47,302 nt of DNA from Bacillus sp. (in: firmicutes) (GTDB lineage: Bacteria > Bacillota > Clostridia > Lachnospirales > Lachnospiraceae), in contig JAMPCN010000009.1 in the NCBI GenBank assembly GCA_023666125.1, positions 1 through 47,302 of the forward strand. Direction: 5' to 3'. How positions within the stretch are numbered: position 1 is the stretch's first letter; each line of letters opens with the position of its first letter. Positions 19,999 to 29,569 of the stretch are shown here, one piece after another. The notes beneath the pieces were generated by a model, which had not been told where the DNA came from, did no database searches, and saw only the letters and a list, made by a program, of their open reading frames with translations. The translations under genes and the position numbers were made by a program.

Positions 19999-21060
19999 AT
20001 GGGCAAGGATAAATATGTAGCGTACGTTTCTACTTATACAATCGGCAATAAGGATAAATACGGCATCAGAATTTATGATGTGGATATGGAAAACGGCCGT
20101 ATGACGGAAAAAAATCAGGTAGAAATTACAAATTCCTCCTATATCAGCATTTCGCACAATCAGAAATTTTTGTATTCCATTACGGATTTCGGGGTGGAAG
20201 CCTACCGTATTCTTTCCACGGGAGATTTGGAAAAAGTAAACGACGGCAGCATCAACGGCATGAGAGGGTGCTATCTTTCCACGGACTATGAGGATAGATT
20301 TTTGTTTGTAGGCGGCTATCATGACGGTAAGATTACGGTGTTAAGGCTGCGTGAGGATGGCGGAATCGGTGAAATTACGGAGGAAATTTATCATAAAGGG
20401 CTTGGCAGCATTGCGGAGCGTAATTTCAGGCCGCATGTAAACTGCGTGAAAATGACGAGAGACAATAAGTATTTATGCGCCGCGGATTTGGGAATGGACC
20501 ATACGAATGTCTACAGGCTCGACCATGTAAACGGCAAGTTAAGGCCGATTGATATGATTCGCAGCGAGCAGGAATCGGCGCCAAGGCATTTGAAGTTTTC
20601 CAAGGACGGCAGATATCTTTATATCGTGCATGAATTGAAAAACTGTATCGACGTTTACACCTATCAGGAGATAAACGGCAATCCGGAATTTGAAAAAATT
20701 CAGACGGTTCCTACGTTAAACGATTACCATGCGGGCGGTTCCGCAGCGAGCGCGTTAAATATTTCCGCGGATTTTAAATATCTGGTAAGCTCCAATGCGG
20801 GAGATAACAGCGCGGTCATTTATAAGATAGACGAAGAGACGGGGCTGTTAGATAAGGTGCTTTGCCTGCCTATCAGCGGGGATTACCCGAAAGATGCGAA
20901 TCTGTTCCCCGATAACAAGCATCTTGTATCGTTAAATCACGAGACAAATACGATGACTTTCTTTAATGTGGATTTAGAGAAAGGGCTGCTTATCATGAAC
21001 GGAAAAGAGATACAGGTTCCGCAGCCGAACTGTATTATTTTCCATAAGCTTTCAAAATAG
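19999..21060 (+). CDS. Lactonase-family beta-propeller protein (6-phosphogluconolactonase-like)
   Basis: 353 residues, matching the seven-bladed lactonase (YbhE/Pgl type) family from end to end: YVAYVSTYTIG, the repeated 'SxDxKxLY' type blades (ISHNQKFLYSITDFG, FSKDGRYLYIVHELKN, LFPDNKHLVSLNHE), and RPHVNCVKMTRDNKYLCAADLG with the conserved His/Asp region. Members hydrolyse 6-phosphogluconolactone, but many family members have unproven substrates. Cytoplasmic: no signal peptide. Strong GGAGG site 10 bases upstream. The XrtG operon starts 113 bases downstream with its own promoter. Confidence 0.85.
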   Translation: MGKDKYVAYVSTYTIGNKDKYGIRIYDVDMENGRMTEKNQVEITNSSYISISHNQKFLYSITDFGVEAYRILSTGDLEKVNDGSINGMRGCYLSTDYEDRFLFVGGYHDGKITVLRLREDGGIGEITEEIYHKGLGSIAERNFRPHVNCVKMTRDNKYLCAADLGMDHTNVYRLDHVNGKLRPIDMIRSEQESAPRHLKFSKDGRYLYIVHELKNCIDVYTYQEINGNPEFEKIQTVPTLNDYHAGGSAASALNISADFKYLVSSNAGDNSAVIYKIDEETGLLDKVLCLPISGDYPKDANLFPDNKHLVSLNHETNTMTFFNVDLEKGLLIMNGKEIQVPQPNCIIFHKLSK

Positions 21061-21077
21061 GAAAAACGAAAAAATAA

Positions 21078-21106
21078 TTGATTTTTGCGGCTCTTTGTGA
21101 TATTCT
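21078..21106 (+). promoter_or_regulatory. Sigma-A-type promoter of the XrtG operon
   Basis: TTGATT (21078-21083), 17-bp spacer, TATTCT (21101-21106), 67 bp before the first operon gene. Confidence 0.55.
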
Positions 21107-21173
21107 AATAGAATAAACAGAATAATGTAGTATCATGGGAAAGTATTAATACAGGGAAACCGGAGATTGATAG

Positions 21174-23570
21174 ATGCAGAAGAAAAAATCTATTCATATC
21201 ACATATTGGCTGGCTTGGTGCATAATAGCGGTTATTTTAGCTACTGCTGTTGCCTTATGTGTGGGCTTTTATCTGTATCATTCCGGAATTTACCTGTATG
21301 GCAGCGCCGTATACGGGCAGTTGTATAAGTTGGATATTATTGCGGATTCCTGGCGGGAGGGCGTTATGTTTCCCTTATACGCGCCGGACTGGTATAACGG
21401 ATATGAGGTTTTCCGCTGCACCGCGCCTGCCGCATATTTTCTGACGGCGGCGATATCCTACATATTCGGTACGGACAGCTATATCGCTATTTGTGTGTTT
21501 TACGGTATTATGACGTTTGTTTCGCAGATGGGATTTTATTTATTCGGTATCAGGCGCAAGAAGATGACGGCGGCATTCTTTACGGGACTTACTTTTTTGC
21601 TGTTGCCGGCTACTTTTTCCGCTGTGATATTGGAAGGCTCCCTTGATATGGTAATGGGGCTGGCTCTGATGCCGCTTTTACTATACTTTTTAGATGATTT
21701 TTGCAGATGGGGCCACAGACTGGCGTTACTGCCGTTTTCAGCGTTGTATTGTTTGTTTATTTTGTCCAACTATGTGCTGTCAATAGCGTTTGGCATTGTT
21801 ATGCTGGTTTACCTGATTTTGTTTATGATAGCAGTCAGAACGTGGAAATACGGGCTGGCGGCGTTGGCTAATATCGGACTGCTTTATCTTGTTATGGGTT
21901 ATTTCCTTTATCCGGCGTTATCGGGAGGGCTTTTGACGCGCGACTATACTTTACAGGGAAGTGCAGAGATGACTTTTGGCATTCCGGTATTCGCGGTTGC
22001 CGTTATCGGTCTTATCACCGCGAACAGGAGCCGGGTGGCAGGCTTTTTGCTGGCAGTCATTGCAGGCGTTTTATCACTTTCCGTGATGGAGCCGGTTATG
22101 AAGCTGATATCGTCTCCGGTGTTACAGAAAAGTTACTGGTACATCTTAATCGTAACAGTTGTTTTGTTAATTACGCTGCTTTGCTGGGAACAGTTAAAAC
22201 CGCTTTTTCTGGTGGTTGCGTTAGTCATTATGACAGGAAGCAATATCCCGACGCTTTTGACGATGGATGACGGAACGCATATACTGGAAACGGACAGGGA
22301 ATTGATTGGGGAATACCTGTTGGATGAAGCGGCGGCCTGTACGGATAACAGGGTGGCGCTTATGGATATAAAAACGCTTGGCGCATTTCCGCAGTGGTAT
22401 TTTACCTGTCAGGATGTGGACGTTATGTTTGGATGGGATTATGAAAATGCGCTGACGGTACAGAATCAAATGAGTTTAAATGAAGCGTTTCTGGACGGCT
22501 TCTATGACTATATGTTTGACAGGATTTTGCTGTATGGTAACGATACGGTTGTTATTTTAAAAGAACTGCTGGAAGAAGGAGCATATGATATGCTGCTTGC
22601 CTCGGCAAACCGTAACGGTTATGGCATACAGGCGGAAAACGACAAGGCGATTGTGCTAAAGGCATCGGCAGTTAATGGAACATATGGCGTTACAGCACAG
22701 TATGAGAATCTGGCAATCGGTGAGAATGCATTTTATATTGCCTATATCTATCCGTCTTTCGGGTATGGGGCAAGTACCTGTTTGGAGGATTATACAATAG
22801 AGGAACTGTCACAGTATCATAAGCTGTACTTATCGGGATTTACATACCGTGATAAGGAAAAAGCGGAAAATATGCTGAAAGAACTTTCTGCGAAAGGAAC
22901 GGAAGTATATATTGATATGCAGCATATACCGATAAATGCCGTAACCGGTAAAAATGAGTTTATGGATGTATATGCGCAGTTTGTACAGTTTACGGAAGAC
23001 TTCCCCGTTTTGCAAAACGATAACGGCAATCAGTTTAAACTGGATTTTAAGGCCGGTGGATATGCCGTTTGGGATACCGTATATGTCTCCGGCTGCGAAG
23101 AGGTTTTAAAAGAGACGGTTTATGAAAACAAGAGCCATTTAGTGTATTTAGGACAAAACCACGAACCCAATGTTACTTTTATGGGATTTAATCTTTTATA
23201 TTACTATCTGACAACGCATAATCAGGATTTAAAGAGATTTTTGGACGAGGCGTTACAGCTTTCTTCTGAGAATTTACCAACACCTGTTATTGTACCGGTG
23301 CAGATAGAGAGAGAAGCGGCGGAAATTGCGGTACATACGCAGGCGGACAGAGTAAACTGCAATATAGCGGGCGTGGACGCGCTGGAAGCGGACAGAATCG
23401 TTTCCATGCAGGAGAATCTTCTGGTGGTAAATCAGGGAGATACCGTATTCAAAGTTAGTTATGCAGGACAGAGAACAGGAATGTTTCTAAGCATTTTAGG
23501 TCTCGTGGCACTATGTGTTATGTGGATTGCAATCTATGTTCTGTTGGAAAATAATGAAATAAAGCAGTAA
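21174..23570 (+). CDS. Large PTPS-related/YfhO-like membrane protein of the XrtG locus
   Basis: 798 residues. Roughly ten to twelve membrane segments in residues 10-370; early on is the loop WREGVMFPLYAPDWYNGYE, characteristic of the '6-pyruvoyl-tetrahydropterin synthase related' membrane domain and of YfhO-like GT-C proteins. Residues about 380-760 form a large extracellular domain, and a final membrane segment (about 768-788) ends in a short cytoplasmic tail. GT-C membership suggests transfer of a lipid-linked sugar to an exported acceptor; the acceptor may be the secreted protein encoded next. First gene of a six-gene operon with no internal terminator. Family assignment is by pattern; function is inference. 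Confidence 0.7.
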   Translation: MQKKKSIHITYWLAWCIIAVILATAVALCVGFYLYHSGIYLYGSAVYGQLYKLDIIADSWREGVMFPLYAPDWYNGYEVFRCTAPAAYFLTAAISYIFGTDSYIAICVFYGIMTFVSQMGFYLFGIRRKKMTAAFFTGLTFLLLPATFSAVILEGSLDMVMGLALMPLLLYFLDDFCRWGHRLALLPFSALYCLFILSNYVLSIAFGIVMLVYLILFMIAVRTWKYGLAALANIGLLYLVMGYFLYPALSGGLLTRDYTLQGSAEMTFGIPVFAVAVIGLITANRSRVAGFLLAVIAGVLSLSVMEPVMKLISSPVLQKSYWYILIVTVVLLITLLCWEQLKPLFLVVALVIMTGSNIPTLLTMDDGTHILETDRELIGEYLLDEAAACTDNRVALMDIKTLGAFPQWYFTCQDVDVMFGWDYENALTVQNQMSLNEAFLDGFYDYMFDRILLYGNDTVVILKELLEEGAYDMLLASANRNGYGIQAENDKAIVLKASAVNGTYGVTAQYENLAIGENAFYIAYIYPSFGYGASTCLEDYTIEELSQYHKLYLSGFTYRDKEKAENMLKELSAKGTEVYIDMQHIPINAVTGKNEFMDVYAQFVQFTEDFPVLQNDNGNQFKLDFKAGGYAVWDTVYVSGCEEVLKETVYENKSHLVYLGQNHEPNVTFMGFNLLYYYLTTHNQDLKRFLDEALQLSSENLPTPVIVPVQIEREAAEIAVHTQADRVNCNIAGVDALEADRIVSMQENLLVVNQGDTVFKVSYAGQRTGMFLSILGLVALCVMWIAIYVLLENNEIKQ

Positions 23571-23595
23571 GAGGGTAGAAAAGGAGGAATACACC

Positions 23596-25137
23596 ATGAG
23601 AAAGCGTACAAAGAAACTGGCGCTTACCTTACTGTTGTCAGTTGCGATGCTCAGTATGAATATGAATTTCGTATATGCTGAGGAAATGGGAATCTCGGAT
23701 AGTAGCATTCCGGCAGGAGAAGCGGCATCCGCCGTAAATACTTCTGCAGACGTTACGGCGGCTGACAGCACAGACAACACGGAACAGGCAGAAAACACAG
23801 AGGGGGCTGCGGAAACGGCGGTTGACAGTGTCGTAACGGACGAAAATGCCGCACAGCAGACCGTAACAGATGGCAATACAGAAACTACCGGAGAAAGCGG
23901 CGCGGCTGGAACAGAAACGGGAACCCAGACGACGGGCGAAACAGGAACTCAGGTAACAGACGGAACCGGAACGGCAGATGGCAGCGGCGACGTTACGGAT
24001 GGCGCGGCCGGAGACGGCGAGACCACGGACGGTACAGCAGGTGACGGTATTGCGGCTGCGGATGGAGCGGAGACGGACGCTGCGGAGACACCTGAAAAAG
24101 TGTATGTGAATCAGGCGGGAGAGGAAGTTCTTCCTTCTACGTTAGTCGGTGTGGATTATACGACAATCGCGGACAGTTACGACGGCGTGGAGAATGTTAT
24201 CAAACAGTATGCGCTTTCCGATACATATGCGAAAGATACGGTTATGGATAGCTATGTGGATGAAAACGGCAACCTGATTATGATTATCTGTCAGGGTGCA
24301 GCCGGTGCGGCAGAGGCAGAGGATACAGAGAAAAAAGAAAGCGGTATTCTGGAGACCATAGCAGACGCGCTGGGCTTGGATGCGGAAATGGGAAGCAGCA
24401 GCGACGCTCCGCCGGTAGACGGTACGTTCAGCGGTTGGGATGATATTCCGTTGGTTTATGAAATGAATAATGAGGATTCCGGAAACTGCTGGGTAAACGG
24501 TTACTGGATTACCAATCAGGAAACGGGAGAGACCGAGCAGCATATATGCGAGCAGGGAACCTATGATAATGTTGTCCGTCATGCGATGCAGTTATACTGC
24601 GATGGCGATAACGTTTATTTGAAGATTACCTATGCGTCGATTTACGGCGGCATCTGGGCTTTCGATGAAGCGGAAAATGAAAAAGCGGCGCATGGCAACG
24701 GAGATGATTTTAATTTTTATATTGACGGCGTAGATACGAAATTCGAGGTTACGCAGCAGGGTAATGGCAAGCCGATTACGAACTGGACGCCGGAGCCGGG
24801 AACGTATGTGGTAGATGTAAGACATGGAAATTTTGACCCGTCCTACAGTCTCGTGGACGGCGCTGTCGCTTACTATCATGTAACGGAAACGGGCGTGAAC
24901 AATTCATTGGAATTAAAGATTCCGATGGAGGCTTTTCAGACGCAGAATGGAGCGGTAAATCTGGATAATTTCAGTATGGTTCAGTTCTATACCTCCAATC
25001 TGATGCGTGACAGGCTCACCGCGGCAGGTTCCCCGACCGGAGCAGAACCTTTTGCGGCGGCGGTATTTTTACTGGTTCCCGCAAGCTATGTATGGTTGAA
25101 GAAGAGGGACAATAAGGAGGATATGGCATTTGCATGA
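23596..25137 (+). CDS. Secreted surface protein with Firmicu-CTERM-like C-terminal sorting tail
   Basis: 513 residues. A Sec signal peptide (basic start, hydrophobic core, cleavage probably after VYA at about 29). Residues about 33-165 are low complexity, dominated by Thr, Gly, Glu, Asp and Ala, a likely disordered and possibly O-glycosylated stem. A folded domain at about 265-480 (GTFSGWDDIPLVYEMNN, then NFYIDGVDTKFEV) resembles carbohydrate-binding-like beta modules. The end has a tripartite sorting signal: GSPTGAEPF, a hydrophobic helix (AAAVFLLVPASYVWL) and basic KKR. This layout matches Firmicu-CTERM substrates of exosortase XrtG, encoded two genes downstream. Unlike most such tails, ten acidic/neutral residues follow the KKR. 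It overlaps the next gene by 4 bases (ATGA). Confidence 0.8.
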   Translation: MRKRTKKLALTLLLSVAMLSMNMNFVYAEEMGISDSSIPAGEAASAVNTSADVTAADSTDNTEQAENTEGAAETAVDSVVTDENAAQQTVTDGNTETTGESGAAGTETGTQTTGETGTQVTDGTGTADGSGDVTDGAAGDGETTDGTAGDGIAAADGAETDAAETPEKVYVNQAGEEVLPSTLVGVDYTTIADSYDGVENVIKQYALSDTYAKDTVMDSYVDENGNLIMIICQGAAGAAEAEDTEKKESGILETIADALGLDAEMGSSSDAPPVDGTFSGWDDIPLVYEMNNEDSGNCWVNGYWITNQETGETEQHICEQGTYDNVVRHAMQLYCDGDNVYLKITYASIYGGIWAFDEAENEKAAHGNGDDFNFYIDGVDTKFEVTQQGNGKPITNWTPEPGTYVVDVRHGNFDPSYSLVDGAVAYYHVTETGVNNSLELKIPMEAFQTQNGAVNLDNFSMVQFYTSNLMRDRLTAAGSPTGAEPFAAAVFLLVPASYVWLKKRDNKEDMAFA

Positions 25138-25610
25138 GCGAGAGGCATGAAGCATATTTATACCATGTAACTTTTAATGCGATGCATAATCTGGTTTTAG
25201 ATGACCCTAGAAAAATGCATGCCCACACATTTTGTGTGGGCATATATGTCATAGAGGAGCAGGAAGACCACCCTATATTCTTAAGCAGCGAGAAGATTCT
25301 GGAACGCTACTTCGCGCATTATCAGGGGATTCGTTTAAACGAACTTGCTCCTTTTATGGAACTGACGCCGACGTTGGAGAATATGGGCGAGGTTTTTTAT
25401 GGGGATTTGAAACCGATTTTTGCAAGAAACGGGATGAAACTGTTACTTCTTGAGGTGGGTGACAGTCCGATATCCACTTACTGCGTAGGGGAAAGACCGA
25501 TGATTGGCAATGTTTTCAGTCTGACGCCGGACGGTATGGTGGACGAGTATTGCGAAAGAGTACAGCGAAGATATGAGCAGACTATGCCGGGAGGAGGTAA
25601 TAATGGTTAA
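25134..25610 (+). CDS. 6-pyruvoyl-tetrahydropterin-synthase-like protein, XrtG-associated (first copy)
   Basis: 158 residues with the PTPS/QueD fold signature: YLYHVTFNAMHNL, then MHAHTFCVGIYV, supplying His17-like and His-x-His zinc ligands, and a later PTLENMGEVFYGDLKPIF and LLLLEVGDSP with the conserved Glu. The catalytic Cys that in QueD lies between the first His and the HxH is absent here, so ordinary pterin chemistry is doubtful. Such proteins are a recognised but unexplained companion of exosortase XrtG. Translationally coupled to the substrate gene (ATGA overlap) and to xrtG (8-base overlap). Confidence 0.8.
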   Translation: MSERHEAYLYHVTFNAMHNLVLDDPRKMHAHTFCVGIYVIEEQEDHPIFLSSEKILERYFAHYQGIRLNELAPFMELTPTLENMGEVFYGDLKPIFARNGMKLLLLEVGDSPISTYCVGERPMIGNVFSLTPDGMVDEYCERVQRRYEQTMPGGGNNG

Positions 25611-26211
25611 GACAGCTATTTTATTTCTTGTGTTATTCATTGTCTGGATTTATATTCTGACCGTATTCAAAAGGAGAAAATTGGAGTTTTTCTACTTTCT
25701 GGCAGGAAGTATCGGCACGTTTCTGTTTTCTTTTGCTCTGCTTAGAAATGTATTGACAGAGATATTGACTACTTTAACCTGTTTCTTAACGGGGCTTTTG
25801 GGAAATGCTTTGGGCATTTTCAAGGCATATACGTCGCATTCCATCCTTTTCGTGGAAAATGCGGACGGACCGATTTCCTTATATGTGGATTTTGAGTGCG
25901 GCGGCGTCATAGAGATTCTCGTATTTATTTCCCTGGTATGGTTTTTTGCGGTATATAATGTAAAAGAGAAGTTTGGCATATCCATAATCGGTATTATATG
26001 GATTATTGTTGCCAATATTATCAGGCTTTTTTCCATCTGTCTGATTATTAACCAATTTGGAAATGAATCCTATTATGTGGCGCATACGATTGTCGGAAGA
26101 CTGATATTTTATGCACTTTCCATTATTTTGTATTTTTATGTATTTACAAGGGCGCAGATACGAAAACAACGGGTAGGAGAGTTTGGGTATGATAACGAAG
26201 CTGGCAAATGA
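25603..26211 (+). CDS. xrtG: Exosortase XrtG
   Basis: 202 residues from ATG 25603, fixed by GGGAGGAGG 6 bases upstream; the in-frame ATG at 25573 is inside the preceding gene and has no such site. About six membrane segments. The exosortase/archaeosortase catalytic residues are in place: Cys99 in DFECGGVIE, Arg141 in ANIIRLFSI and His161 in YYVAHTIVGRLIFY. The enzyme is predicted to cut the C-terminal tail of its target protein outside the membrane and pass it to an unknown acceptor. Its presumed target is the protein at 23596-25137. It overlaps the next gene by 23 bases. Confidence 0.9.
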   Translation: MVKTAILFLVLFIVWIYILTVFKRRKLEFFYFLAGSIGTFLFSFALLRNVLTEILTTLTCFLTGLLGNALGIFKAYTSHSILFVENADGPISLYVDFECGGVIEILVFISLVWFFAVYNVKEKFGISIIGIIWIIVANIIRLFSICLIINQFGNESYYVAHTIVGRLIFYALSIILYFYVFTRAQIRKQRVGEFGYDNEAGK

Positions 26212-27595
26212 GGTGTTTTTCTGGGCGGCATGGATTATTATTCCGCTTTTGATAGAGATTGTTCCCGCGGTGGGCAATTTCTTTATTCTGCTGTTTAAAC
26301 GCGTCAGGGTAGGCAAGGAGATTAAACTGGATTATTTACCAAATATCACTTTGATGATTCCGGTCTATAATTCGGGGCAGACGCTGTACCGCTGTATTCA
26401 GTCCATCCATGAATCCACTTATCCGAACCATTTAATAGAGATTATGCTGGTCGATAACGGTTCTAAGGATGACAGTTTTTCTATCTTCCAGAGGGCGCAG
26501 ATTGACTTCCCGGAGCTTGCCATGTGGTGGATGCACTCGAAACAGGGTAAGTCAAAAGCGTTAAATAAAGCGATTTTTAACAGTAACGGTAAATATATTA
26601 TCAATATTGACAGTGACGGCGTATTGGATGAACACGCGTTAATGAATATCGTCAGACAGTTCGAGACATATCCGGACATTGACTGCATGACGGGCGTTAT
26701 TTTAATTGAACCGGCGCTGATTGAACGGACAAAGGGATTTTTCTTAAAGCAGTTCAGAAAAATGGAATTTATGGAATATGCGCAGGCTTTCCTTGCGGGC
26801 AGAAACTTTGAGTCGCAGTTTAACAGTATTTATACGCTGTCGGGAGCTTTTTCATCTTTCCGGAAATCCATCCTGATGAAGACCTTTTTATATAATACGA
26901 ACACGATATGCGAAGATACGCATTTAACGTTCCAAATCAGGGCGATTTTAAAGAAAAAGGTGCATTTGTGTAACGACGCTATCTTTATGGTAGACCCGAT
27001 TGAGAGCGTGAATAAATTTTATACGCAGCGGCAAAGATGGCAGATTGGCGAGCTGGAAGTTTCTCATATGTTTTTAAAAAATAAGCTCCACAGACCGCTG
27101 ACCGGGTATTTTAACGACTTTGTCATCCGCCTGTTGATGACCGACCATACATTTGCGTTTCCGCGGATGATTTGGTATTTTGTCCTGATTGCGCTTGGCT
27201 GCATGAACTATAATTTCCACAACGTTCTGGTAGCCTGCCTGTTGATTTACGGACTTTATGTATTCAGTTCTTTCTTATATTATCTGAATATCATATCGTT
27301 TTTAAAAGGCTATCCGTCACTGCGCAGATATTATGCAAGGAAGCTGCTCTATCTTTTTGTACTGCCGCTTTTCAACCTGTTTGCTTTCTTCGTCCGTTTT
27401 GCGGGCATTATCAACTCTATCAAGCGAAAGAGCAGTTGGAAAACGCTGACCTTTACGGAGGAACGTAAGATGGTAACAGATACGGTAAGGAAAGATTTCT
27501 TCTTTATATTCGGCATTCGGGATTTGCTGCTTAAAATATTGGAAAAACCTTCAAAACAGGAGATAAGGAATGGAAAAAGCGTACAGACAGTATAA
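26189..27595 (+). CDS. GT2-family processive glycosyltransferase, XrtG-associated
   Basis: 468 residues from ATG 26189 (AGGAG 10 bases upstream; an upstream TTG at 26183 is less likely). One membrane segment at the N-terminus, then a GT-A domain: LMIPVYNSGQTLYRCIQSI, LVDNGSKDDS, the metal-binding DSD in NIDSDGVLDE, EDTHLTFQ as base region, and QRQRWQIGE (QxxRW), the mark of processive synthases. Two or more membrane segments follow at about 315-430. It is likely to polymerise a sugar and export it, which fits a role in making a glycan for the sorted protein. It matches the glycosyltransferase subfamily known to accompany XrtG. Confidence 0.87.
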   Translation: MITKLANEVFFWAAWIIIPLLIEIVPAVGNFFILLFKRVRVGKEIKLDYLPNITLMIPVYNSGQTLYRCIQSIHESTYPNHLIEIMLVDNGSKDDSFSIFQRAQIDFPELAMWWMHSKQGKSKALNKAIFNSNGKYIINIDSDGVLDEHALMNIVRQFETYPDIDCMTGVILIEPALIERTKGFFLKQFRKMEFMEYAQAFLAGRNFESQFNSIYTLSGAFSSFRKSILMKTFLYNTNTICEDTHLTFQIRAILKKKVHLCNDAIFMVDPIESVNKFYTQRQRWQIGELEVSHMFLKNKLHRPLTGYFNDFVIRLLMTDHTFAFPRMIWYFVLIALGCMNYNFHNVLVACLLIYGLYVFSSFLYYLNIISFLKGYPSLRRYYARKLLYLFVLPLFNLFAFFVRFAGIINSIKRKSSWKTLTFTEERKMVTDTVRKDFFFIFGIRDLLLKILEKPSKQEIRNGKSVQTV

Positions 27596-28025
27596 ATTTA
27601 AATTTTATCTGAATATGAATCATTACATTATTATTGACGATAAGCCCGGAGAGGTGCATCCGCATACATGGGAAATTATCTTAAGCGTTATTTCCGCGCA
27701 GAGCGACATGACGCCGTTTGCCAATATCGAGCGGAAAATGGATGAGATTATGGAGCAGTACCAGGATAAGCTGCTAAATGAATGTAAACCGTTCGATTCG
27801 GTCGTGCCTACGGTGGAGAATGCCGCGAAGTATTTTTTCAGGCTCATTCAGGATAATATCATTCAGGAGGGCTGGATTTTGATGATGTTAGAGGTGAGCG
27901 AGACGCCGACAAGGTCATATATTATCAATGCGCTTTTCGACGAGGACGATATATGGGATGAATGGTATGATAATCTGACAAGAAAGAATATGGGGCTTTA
28001 CGGAGAAAATCGAAATATGAAATAA
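27570..28025 (+). CDS. 6-pyruvoyl-tetrahydropterin-synthase-like protein, XrtG-associated (second copy)
   Basis: 151 residues. Same fold as the protein at 25134-25610: FKFYLNMNHYIII then GEVHPHTWEIILSV gives the three zinc-type histidines; PTVENAAKYFF and MMLEVSETP align with the first copy. No Cys lies between the histidines, and the segment there is short (DDKPGE), so the QueD-type active site is not present. Acts presumably as a partner or binding protein in the XrtG pathway. It overlaps the glycosyltransferase gene by 26 bases, has AGGAGATAAGGA upstream, and ends the operon before a hairpin. Confidence 0.8.
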   Translation: MEKAYRQYKFKFYLNMNHYIIIDDKPGEVHPHTWEIILSVISAQSDMTPFANIERKMDEIMEQYQDKLLNECKPFDSVVPTVENAAKYFFRLIQDNIIQEGWILMMLEVSETPTRSYIINALFDEDDIWDEWYDNLTRKNMGLYGENRNMK

Positions 28026-28055
28026 GTCATAAACATAACCTCTTCCACATACATT
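28026..28055 (+). promoter_or_regulatory. Sigma-E-type sporulation promoter of spoIVA
   Basis: GTCATAAA (28026-28033) as -35, 14-bp spacer, CATACATT (28048-28055) as -10, matching the mother-cell sigma-E consensus (CATACAnT). The transcript would begin near 28061-28063, about 20 bases before the spoIVA start. spoIVA is sigma-E controlled in Bacillus and Clostridia. Confidence 0.75.
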
Positions 28056-28081
28056 TTAGTAAGTATGGAAGGGGTTTTTTT
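28039..28081 (+). terminator. Terminator of the XrtG operon, overlapping the spoIVA promoter and ribosome site
   Basis: Left arm 28039-28052 pairs with right arm 28063-28074 (GTATGGAAGGGG) with a two-base bulge and a 10-nt loop, followed by seven T. The right arm contains the purine-rich ribosome site of spoIVA and the T-run ends at its ATG. Confidence 0.8.
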
Positions 28082-29569
28082 ATGGACATTAATAACAGAA
28101 ATGAATATGCGGTATACAAAGACATACAGGATAGAACGGGCGGAGAGATATACATAGGCGTTGTAGGTCCTGTAAGATGCGGAAAATCCACTTTTATCAA
28201 AAGATTCATGGATTTATTGGTTCTGCCGTTTATGGAAAACGAACATGAGAAAGAGCGCGCACAGGATGAATTACCGCAGAGCGCAGGGGGAAAGACGATT
28301 ACGACGACGGAGCCGAAATTTATTCCAAAAGAGGCGGCGCGGATTCAACTGGGGCCGGATATTGACGTGAAGGTCAGGCTGATTGACTGTGTCGGCTATA
28401 TGGTGGACGGCGCGACCGGGCATATGGAAGAAGACGCCGAGAGAATGGTGAAGACGCCGTGGTCTGCAGAGGAGATTCCGTTTACGAAAGCGGCGGAGAT
28501 TGGAACGCGCAAGGTCATTAAAGACCATTCCACAATCGGCATTGTCGTAACCTGTGACGGAAGCTTCGGCGAACTGCCGCGAAGCAGCTTTTTAGAGCCG
28601 GAGGAAAAGACTATCAGGGAGTTACAGGAAATTCATAAGCCGTTTCTGGTGCTGTTAAATTCCGCCAAACCATATGCGGAGGAAACGAGGCAGATAGCGG
28701 ACGAAATACACGAGAAATACCAGGTTACGGTAATGCCTGTCAACTGCGAGCAGCTAAAGAAAGAGGATATTAACCGTATCATGGAAAATATCCTGTATGA
28801 ATTCCCGCTGACGATGATAGAGTTTTATATGCCCAAATGGGTGGAAATGCTTTCCTATGAGCATAAAATGAAACAGGATATTATCAGCCGGATTAAGACG
28901 TTAATGGGAGAACTGACGAATGTCAGGGATATCACTAAAGCCAATTTTGATTTGGAAAGCGAATATATTAAAAAGTGCAAGCTTGACGGCATCAATATGT
29001 CGGAGGGCAGCGTCAAAATTGTGTTGGATTTGGACGATACCTATTATTATGAAATGATAAGCGATTTAGTAGGGGAATCCATCACCAGTGAATATCAGAT
29101 GTTATCTACGTTAAAAGAGATGGCGAAGATGAAAAGGGAATATACGAAAGTATTACATGCGATGGAATCCGTCCGTTATAAGGGGTACGGCGTTGTCATG
29201 CCGGATAAGGAGGAAATTGTTCTGGAAAAACCGGAGGTTATCAAGCAGGGCAATAAATTCGGCGTGAAAATCAAAGCGGAGAGTCCGAGCATTCATATGA
29301 TAAAGGCAAGTATCGAAACGGAAATTTCACCGATTGTCGGTACGGAGGCGCAGGCAAAGGATTTGATCCAGTATATATCGGACACCGGCACGAGCGACGA
29401 GGGTATCTGGGAGACCAATATTTTCGGGAAAACGATAGAACAACTGGTAAATGATGGAATTTCTACCAAAATTGCGATGATAAATGAGGAAAGTCAGGTA
29501 AAATTGCAGGAAACCATGCAAAAAATTGTAAACGACAGTAATGGCGGCATGGTGTGCATTATTATTTAG
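28082..29569 (+). CDS. spoIVA: Stage IV sporulation protein A, spore coat morphogenetic ATPase
   Basis: 495 residues, near the 492 of Bacillus subtilis SpoIVA. N-terminal TRAFAC-type NTPase domain with Walker A GPVRCGKST (29-37) and switch/Walker B region VRLIDCVGYM, then GIVVTCDGSFGELPRSSFLE. The middle and C-terminal domains (from about 270) end in a hydrophobic VCIII tail, the region that in B. subtilis contacts SpoVM. It polymerises on the outer forespore membrane in the mother cell and is the basement layer for the coat. The promoter is of the sigma-E type. This gene shows the organism forms, or descends from formers of, endospores. Confidence 0.97.
   Translation: MDINNRNEYAVYKDIQDRTGGEIYIGVVGPVRCGKSTFIKRFMDLLVLPFMENEHEKERAQDELPQSAGGKTITTTEPKFIPKEAARIQLGPDIDVKVRLIDCVGYMVDGATGHMEEDAERMVKTPWSAEEIPFTKAAEIGTRKVIKDHSTIGIVVTCDGSFGELPRSSFLEPEEKTIRELQEIHKPFLVLLNSAKPYAEETRQIADEIHEKYQVTVMPVNCEQLKKEDINRIMENILYEFPLTMIEFYMPKWVEMLSYEHKMKQDIISRIKTLMGELTNVRDITKANFDLESEYIKKCKLDGINMSEGSVKIVLDLDDTYYYEMISDLVGESITSEYQMLSTLKEMAKMKREYTKVLHAMESVRYKGYGVVMPDKEEIVLEKPEVIKQGNKFGVKIKAESPSIHMIKASIETEISPIVGTEAQAKDLIQYISDTGTSDEGIWETNIFGKTIEQLVNDGISTKIAMINEESQVKLQETMQKIVNDSNGGMVCIII

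Follow-up and report, generated by a model that had tools for sequence, protein, structure and literature searches.

The XrtG/Firmicu-CTERM system, made up of the families TIGR03110, TIGR03111, TIGR03112 and TIGR04145, was reportedly described by Haft and co-workers in J Bacteriol 2012. In the openly licensed literature we found no report of XrtG chemistry and no stated role for the PTPS-like companions of XrtG. One example, LP_RS09090-09075 of Lactiplantibacillus plantarum, comprises a Firmicu-CTERM protein, XrtG and two XrtG-associated glycosyltransferases and is listed among over-expressed cell-wall transcripts, according to passages of one report (PMC12854382). In the XrtA/PEP-CTERM system, as set out in another (PMC1569441), an exosortase and substrates with a C-terminal tail of motif, helix and basic cluster are linked to exopolysaccharide genes. 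Here we describe a six-gene XrtG operon at positions 21174-28025 of a 47,302-nucleotide stretch of contig JAMPCN010000009.1 (assembly GCA_023666125.1, from a gut bacterium of the Lachnospiraceae), hereafter the window. By gene content it is a member of the already known XrtG system, and we put at roughly one half the probability that it makes and anchors one surface protein, with its two PTPS-like proteins serving as ligand-binding regulatory subunits.

All six open reading frames (ORFs) were found on the plus strand, in close order and tightly packed, where a preliminary description of the window had placed them. Their order is PF10131 membrane protein, substrate, PTPS-like protein 1, XrtG, family 2 glycosyltransferase (GT2) and PTPS-like protein 2, and the spacings of +25, -4, -8, -23 and -26 bp suggest a single transcript. 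The exosortase call made there for 25603-26211 was borne out clearly by profile search, with 197.6 bits against TIGR03110 (curated cut-off 102.75) and 50 bits against the superfamily model TIGR04178 (cut-off 23). In the window, xrtG is linked to genes of both companion families: the GT2 scores 619.7 bits against TIGR03111 (cut-off 363.95), and PTPS-like proteins 1 and 2 score 81.5 and 132.9 bits against TIGR03112 (cut-off 69.35). The second-best named family for the GT2 was PgaC/IcaA at 124.4 bits, far below its cut-off of 422.3. Every one of the six genes is under purifying selection, with ratios of nonsynonymous to synonymous substitution rates (dN/dS) of 0.00-0.115 in pairwise comparison with locus L032, more distant pairs being saturated.

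Relatives were collected in several ways. XrtG profile searches were positive in 4 of 98 related genomes (within the genus 4 of 60, the window's included) and in 13 of 391 genomes sampled across the class. An alignment search of genome contigs with the GT2 gave 318 relatives, of which the best 80 were taken; 15 fetched stretches and the window brought the set to 96 loci, skewed to close GT2 relatives. Removing loci with identical XrtG (L017, same as L036; L019, same as L032; L020, same as L062) left 93, and counts given out of 96 still include these three. The GT2 query had no pattern match in viral contigs. XrtG is present in all 96 loci, and Cys99, Arg141 and His161 (numbered from ATG 25603, which follows a strong Shine-Dalgarno sequence), which we take to be the catalytic triad of exosortases, are invariant in 96/96. 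The DSD, ED and QRQRW motifs of the GT2 are likewise invariant (94/94, two truncated copies excluded), so that the triad and the processive GT2 of the preliminary description both hold, the latter at the level of motifs; these motifs support a processive-type synthase. In the GT2 tree the window belongs to a monophyletic clade of 18 loci (support 99/98). Two XrtG contigs assigned to metagenome-assembled genomes (MAGs) of other phyla, L097 (Alistipes) and L083 (Anaerolineaceae), stand amid Bacillota rows of this tree, through either binning error or transfer. The GT2 is fused to a sulfatase-type domain (PF00884) in two loci, L023:10417-13317 and L091 (Pfam-checked in one of the two; LtaS-like by our own reading), which hints at phosphoglycerol-type decoration of the glycan.

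The substrate ends in a motif, a hydrophobic helix and a basic cluster, and is encoded inside the xrtG operon. A search with a tail profile made from relatives, the window tail itself being one of the seeds, recovered the window tail at 1.2e-20, and TIGR04145 matched all 34 aligned substrates at E<=0.01, the window's included. The curated cut-off of 50 bits is not reached by the window protein, either in the protein scan (41.8) or in the genome scan (45.1). Judged by these profiles, it behaves as a substrate of the Firmicu-CTERM type and is related to the members, yet it is no formal member of TIGR04145. Across the loci the motif approximates to G-[TAS]-[SP]-T-[GA]-[PAE]; in the window it reads GSPTGAEP.

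The system here probably serves a single client, as had been proposed. One tail-bearing ORF, counted on the XrtG strand with its match near the C terminus, occurs in 86 of the 93 loci, always upstream of xrtG, and none of the 93 has two (C-terminal tail matches at E<1e-3, both strands). Five of the seven loci without such an ORF have <=561 bp upstream of xrtG, while L027 and L031 have more; an extra weak tail match in L096 (E 0.061) was left out. The window genome, which is 88% complete, was searched for further proteins with the same tail, as the preliminary description had suggested, and no second C-terminal tail was found. TIGR04145 matched the in-operon gene and, at E 0.53, one sequence that was not inspected. 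The two runners-up of the tail profile (E 0.012 and 0.045) were rejected as substrates, since one is an internal helix of a 541-residue membrane protein and the other a helix with a long acidic tail after it; a fourth match (E 1.2) was not inspected.

In all, 162 PTPS-like domains occur in 89 of 93 loci, as two copies in 73, and are missing only from L026, L027, L100 and L105. The zinc-type His triad of the metal site is present in 157 of the 162 domains (by position relative to xrtG, 82/82 downstream and 55/57 upstream copies; among fusions, 15/18 with the membrane protein and 5/5 with a pseudo-GGDEF protein, introduced below), and is intact in both window copies. The catalytic-loop Cys is present in none of the 162, and the His of the Asp-His stretch remains in only seven. 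A canonical QueD from a relative, used as control, has Cys and Asp-His in the matching columns. At the anchor position, Glu is found in 82/82 downstream copies and Asp or Glu, mostly Asp, in 55/57 upstream copies. Downstream copies further share Glu108 and Gly27 (each 82/82) and Arg115 (79/82), and neither Glu108 nor Arg115 has a match in the QueD control. By the tests made, PTPS-like proteins 1 and 2 are not PTPS/QueD enzymes, and the pattern of residues indicates a pocket under strong constraint. In enzymes of the PTPS-III type the catalytic Cys is replaced by a fixed Glu; that swap was not seen here, the Cys column of the downstream copies being mostly L, P, Q, K or M. The idea that a host QueD supplies the PTPS function was likewise dropped, as no QueD match was found in the window genome. 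With the metal site and anchor acid kept and the catalytic residues gone, the two proteins look like enzymes turned ligand sensors.

Natural fusions tie these proteins to the membrane. The PTPS-like and PF10131 membrane proteins form one polypeptide in 18 of 93 loci, a pseudo-GGDEF protein is fused to a PTPS-like domain in five and to the GT2 in two; such fusions suggest a single membrane complex. That PTPS-like domains are covalently attached to membrane proteins of two unrelated kinds is easier to reconcile with a regulatory or scaffold role than with a tentative alternative, that the pair is a metal-dependent lyase, aldolase or epimerase acting on a glycan precursor through a residue other than the PTPS Cys. 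For such an enzyme speak the metal-site His and the conserved Glu108, Arg115 and Gly27, the first two of which are unmatched in QueD; it is opposed by the loss of the loop Cys and, nearly always, of the Asp-His pair, and by an anchor that is mostly Asp in upstream copies and Glu in downstream ones.

The pseudo-GGDEF protein is a membrane protein of ~350-400 residues in which, by eye in the alignment, two helices, an intervening part, a coiled coil and a degenerate GGDEF part can be distinguished. In 50 of 93 loci it lies downstream of the GT2 or forms one polypeptide with it; among the 66 loci outside the window clade that have >=4.5 kb of sequence downstream, 47 encode it. Homology to GGDEF had a profile probability of 99.7 for eight clear members and 84.4 for 37 others, against 0.03 for an unrelated control (six PTPS-fused rows were left out). 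In the four genomes tested that carry the gene, its profile gave strong matches beginning close to the N terminus (for the PTPS fusion of one genome, to the N-terminal part only); in five window-clade genomes only the GGDEF part was matched. The two loci with the GT2-pseudo-GGDEF fusion branch near the base of the window clade, with weak support (87/42) and long branches in both. The natural fusions allow a narrower form of the sensor interpretation, a nucleotide- or pterin-gated glycan/sorting machine in which a disarmed PTPS-fold pair, often joined by a pseudo-GGDEF sensor, is built into the synthase complex. We regard this as a speculative refinement and found no paper in the openly licensed literature that connects XrtG to either pseudo-GGDEF proteins or sensors of the PTPS type. 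Were it true, the exosortase output would be switched by a small guanine-derived molecule, and in the window lineage, whose operons lack the pseudo-GGDEF part, sensing would fall to the PTPS pair.

Several observations weigh against a ligand-regulated Firmicu-CTERM anchoring system. At 41.8 bits the substrate falls short of the curated score of 50. Nothing hints at a sensor more strongly than the pseudo-GGDEF link, but the operons of the window lineage do not have it (0/18), and elsewhere the GGDEF homology is weak in many copies, with Pfam GGDEF matched in 3 of 13 scanned and the NCBIfam GGDEF cut-off reached in two of five. Binding of cyclic-di-GMP by the pseudo-GGDEF protein is not indicated, as an intact GGDEF signature was found in none of 50 operon copies and RxxD, by eye, in none of seven aligned members. 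Control by cyclic-di-GMP enzymes encoded nearby is unsupported as well: a separate GGDEF, EAL or HD-GYP gene occurs in 15 of 92 relatives' loci, no clear enrichment over 10.4 GGDEF genes expected (from 293 genes in ~44 Mb, an expectation that counts GGDEF alone). Three of the 18 membrane-protein fusions lack the metal-site His, a misfit with a universal metal requirement, and the invariant metal site could equally indicate an unfamiliar enzyme rather than a sensor.

The Thr/Gly-rich stem of the window substrate is predicted to be disordered, with a predicted local distance difference test (pLDDT) score <50 across most of residues 23-159. Among 82 complete substrates (four truncated ones excluded), 46 show no run of 40 residues with stem-type composition and 27 are <=265 residues long, and for these reasons the stem is probably a spacer. 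This bears on the model of the preliminary description, in which the GT2 glycan is joined to the stem by the GT-C-like membrane protein or by XrtG. Intact GT2 motifs agree with it, as do a membrane-protein model whose topology we read as GT-C-compatible and the DPM1-like GT2 and GtrA/DPMS-type protein of relatives, which could supply lipid-linked sugars. The frequent lack of a stem counts against it, no DPM1-like or GtrA-like gene was found beside the window operon, and the loop-1 acid considered next is missing from the window and six more of 15 clade members; we hold this model to be improbable.

The membrane protein matches PF10131 at 262.2 bits (cut-off 26.4), and its AlphaFold2 model has a mean pLDDT of 88.7 and a predicted template modelling (pTM) score of 0.84. 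It is possibly a GT-C relative. In most relatives loop 1 reads G-x-D-x-x-G-H or similar. Here Asp45 is replaced by Ala and His49 by Gln, and with Ser44 and Ala45 the window protein lacks an acid in the first extracytoplasmic loop. Asp45 is kept in 54 of 60 proteins outside the window clade versus 2 of 15 inside, an acid at 44 or 45 occurs in 58/60 and 8/15, respectively (the window is among the seven without), and residue 49 is Gln in 15/15 clade members and His in 56/60 others; these counts exclude second, distant PF10131 proteins (<500 bits) and three truncated rows. Because the Asp that a GT-C enzyme should have in loop 1 is mostly lost, a classical GT-C reaction appears doubtful in the window lineage, and yet the gene is not decaying, to judge from its dN/dS of 0.097 against L032. 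Of the interpretation offered earlier, the XrtG operon, the in-operon substrate and, probably, the single client thus survive, whereas modification of the stem is unsupported in general and the GT-C reaction is weakened for this organism. Loci L046-L050 and L053 also encode a further, distant membrane protein of the PF10131 type, on the opposite strand directly after PTPS-like gene 2.

The conserved portion of the substrates is a folded domain adjoining the tail, with an IDGxFxxWDxxP motif. It is beta-rich in the window model, where it has high confidence, and presumably resembles CBM9/DOMON domains; Pfam CBM9_1 matched only one of the 34 aligned substrates, at E 0.058. A PASTA-like segment, modelled as a helix and three strands, precedes it. 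Pfam PASTA was matched at E<=0.1 in five of the 34 (best 7.5e-6), the window protein not among them, and the window segment had a weak profile match, of probability 34, to the PASTA-bearing relatives. No convincing relatives of known structure were found by sequence for the substrate or the membrane protein. The tail-adjacent folded domain, and the PASTA matches of some substrates, would suit a further possible but less favoured arrangement, in which the role of XrtG is limited to cutting the substrate and giving it a lipid anchor in the manner of archaeosortase A (ArtA), which yields a C-terminal lipid anchor according to passages of PMC7157517, and the glycan is a separate product bound through the beta-rich and PASTA-like domains. 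The strict linkage of xrtG and GT2 speaks against such a separation, XrtG being matched in all 80 loci fetched by GT2 (the best 80 of 318).

Our preferred reading is that the operon makes and anchors a single surface protein, with its PTPS-like pair in a regulatory role. Read from the sequences are the gene set, the intact motifs, the single substrate, the missing PTPS catalytic residues, the fusions and the clade-specific differences; from these we infer cleavage, acceptor, glycan attachment and ligand gating. The substrate would be exported by its signal peptide and then held in the membrane by its C-terminal helix. By analogy with the exosortase/archaeosortase family, XrtG would attack near GSPTGAEP by means of Cys99, Arg141 and His161 and pass the new C terminus to a membrane acceptor. 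The GT2 would make and extrude a polysaccharide, which may be the acceptor for the anchored protein or its partner. The PF10131 protein would complete the complex and, in the window lineage, may serve to scaffold it or to handle the acceptor, and not as a GT-C enzyme. At the cytosolic face, PTPS-like proteins 1 and 2, with their metal site and anchor acid kept and their catalytic Cys lost, may act as ligand-binding regulators of what would be a ligand-gated, membrane-bound glycan/sorting complex.

Table 1 Features of the XrtG operon in the window.
Feature	Position	Strand	Characteristics and basis
PF10131 membrane protein, 798 aa	21174..23570	+	Many membrane helices at the N terminus, large soluble C-terminal domain, C-terminal helix
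Firmicu-CTERM-type substrate, 513 aa	23596..25137	+	Tail profile, TIGR04145
Substrate stem, Thr/Gly/Ala/Asp-rich, low complexity, ~residues 29-165	23680..24090	+	Sequence, model
Substrate PASTA-like segment, residues 172-236	24109..24303	+	Model; weak profile match
Substrate conserved beta-rich domain, residues 272-478	24409..25029	+	Alignment, model
Substrate sorting tail: GSPTGAEP motif, hydrophobic helix, KKR cluster	25027..25134	+	Tail profile, model
PTPS-like protein 1	25134..25610	+	His18/His29/His31; without catalytic Cys; Asp at ligand-anchor position
XrtG exosortase	25603..26211	+	TIGR03110; Cys99, Arg141, His161
XrtG-associated GT2 glycosyltransferase	26189..27595	+	TIGR03111; processive-type motifs
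PTPS-like protein 2	27570..28025	+	His18/30/32; ligand-anchor Glu111; without catalytic Cys

The features of the operon are collected in Table 1. The GT2 probably starts at ATG 26189; its longest frame opens at TTG 26183. Scans for promoters (20 versus 16.3 in shuffled sequence) and terminators (5 versus 6.3) were much like those of shuffled sequence, and an inverted repeat of 12 pairs with a 3-base loop lies at 25218-25244, within the coding sequence of PTPS-like protein 1.

The operon sits between a lactonase-like gene, present in 65 of 70 genus genomes, and spoIVA, which follows 56 bp after its last gene. This site (window 21060-28082) holds the operon in the window and in congeners G006 and G491, and is empty in 26 of 30 genus loci, where no gene separates the lactonase-like gene from spoIVA and the gap is 53-170 bp (13 loci with the gap read); one of the 30 loci ended early. 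In G016 the site is empty, yet the operon is present on another contig. Given an empty site in most congeners and this second location, the comparison indicates that the operon was gained or lost as a block. Recent import was not seen in base composition, the GC fraction being 0.441 in the operon versus 0.437 and 0.454 in its flanks. Directly 5' of spoIVA lies a hairpin (28031-28082) with the Shine-Dalgarno sequence in its 3' arm. It is kept with spoIVA in the 13 congener loci that have no operon at this site and whose gap was read, and by eye the stem persists with different letters in two groups. Translational control of spoIVA is possible; Rfam gave one sub-threshold match over the spoIVA leader and nothing more at E<=1.

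The residue pattern and the fusions frame a question, namely whether a metal and a guanine-like ligand are bound by the PTPS-like proteins, and whether such a ligand would switch glycan synthesis or substrate anchoring. One substrate per locus offers a simple readout.

Compared with QueD/PTPS (PF01242), the window copies share the metal-site His triad and, in copy 2, the ligand-anchor Glu, but lack the catalytic Cys and His. With archaeosortase A/PGF-CTERM the operon shares the superfamily (TIGR04178) and a tripartite tail, as far as passages of PMC7157517 describe it; ArtA substrates are lipid-anchored there, whereas the window has GT2 and PTPS-like partners. With XrtA/PEP-CTERM it has in common an exosortase and a motif-helix-basic tail. 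XrtA systems have many substrates per genome, and the window system has one. The L. plantarum system differs in that PTPS-like genes are not mentioned in the passages of PMC12854382. The operon itself belongs to the XrtG/Firmicu-CTERM system. The window clade, whose gene order is that given above for the window, departs from it in being without the pseudo-GGDEF protein, DPM1-like GT2 and GtrA-like protein common in relatives, and the window itself in a membrane protein without the loop-1 Asp and a substrate below the TIGR04145 cut-off, but all genes of the system are present, adjacent and on one strand.

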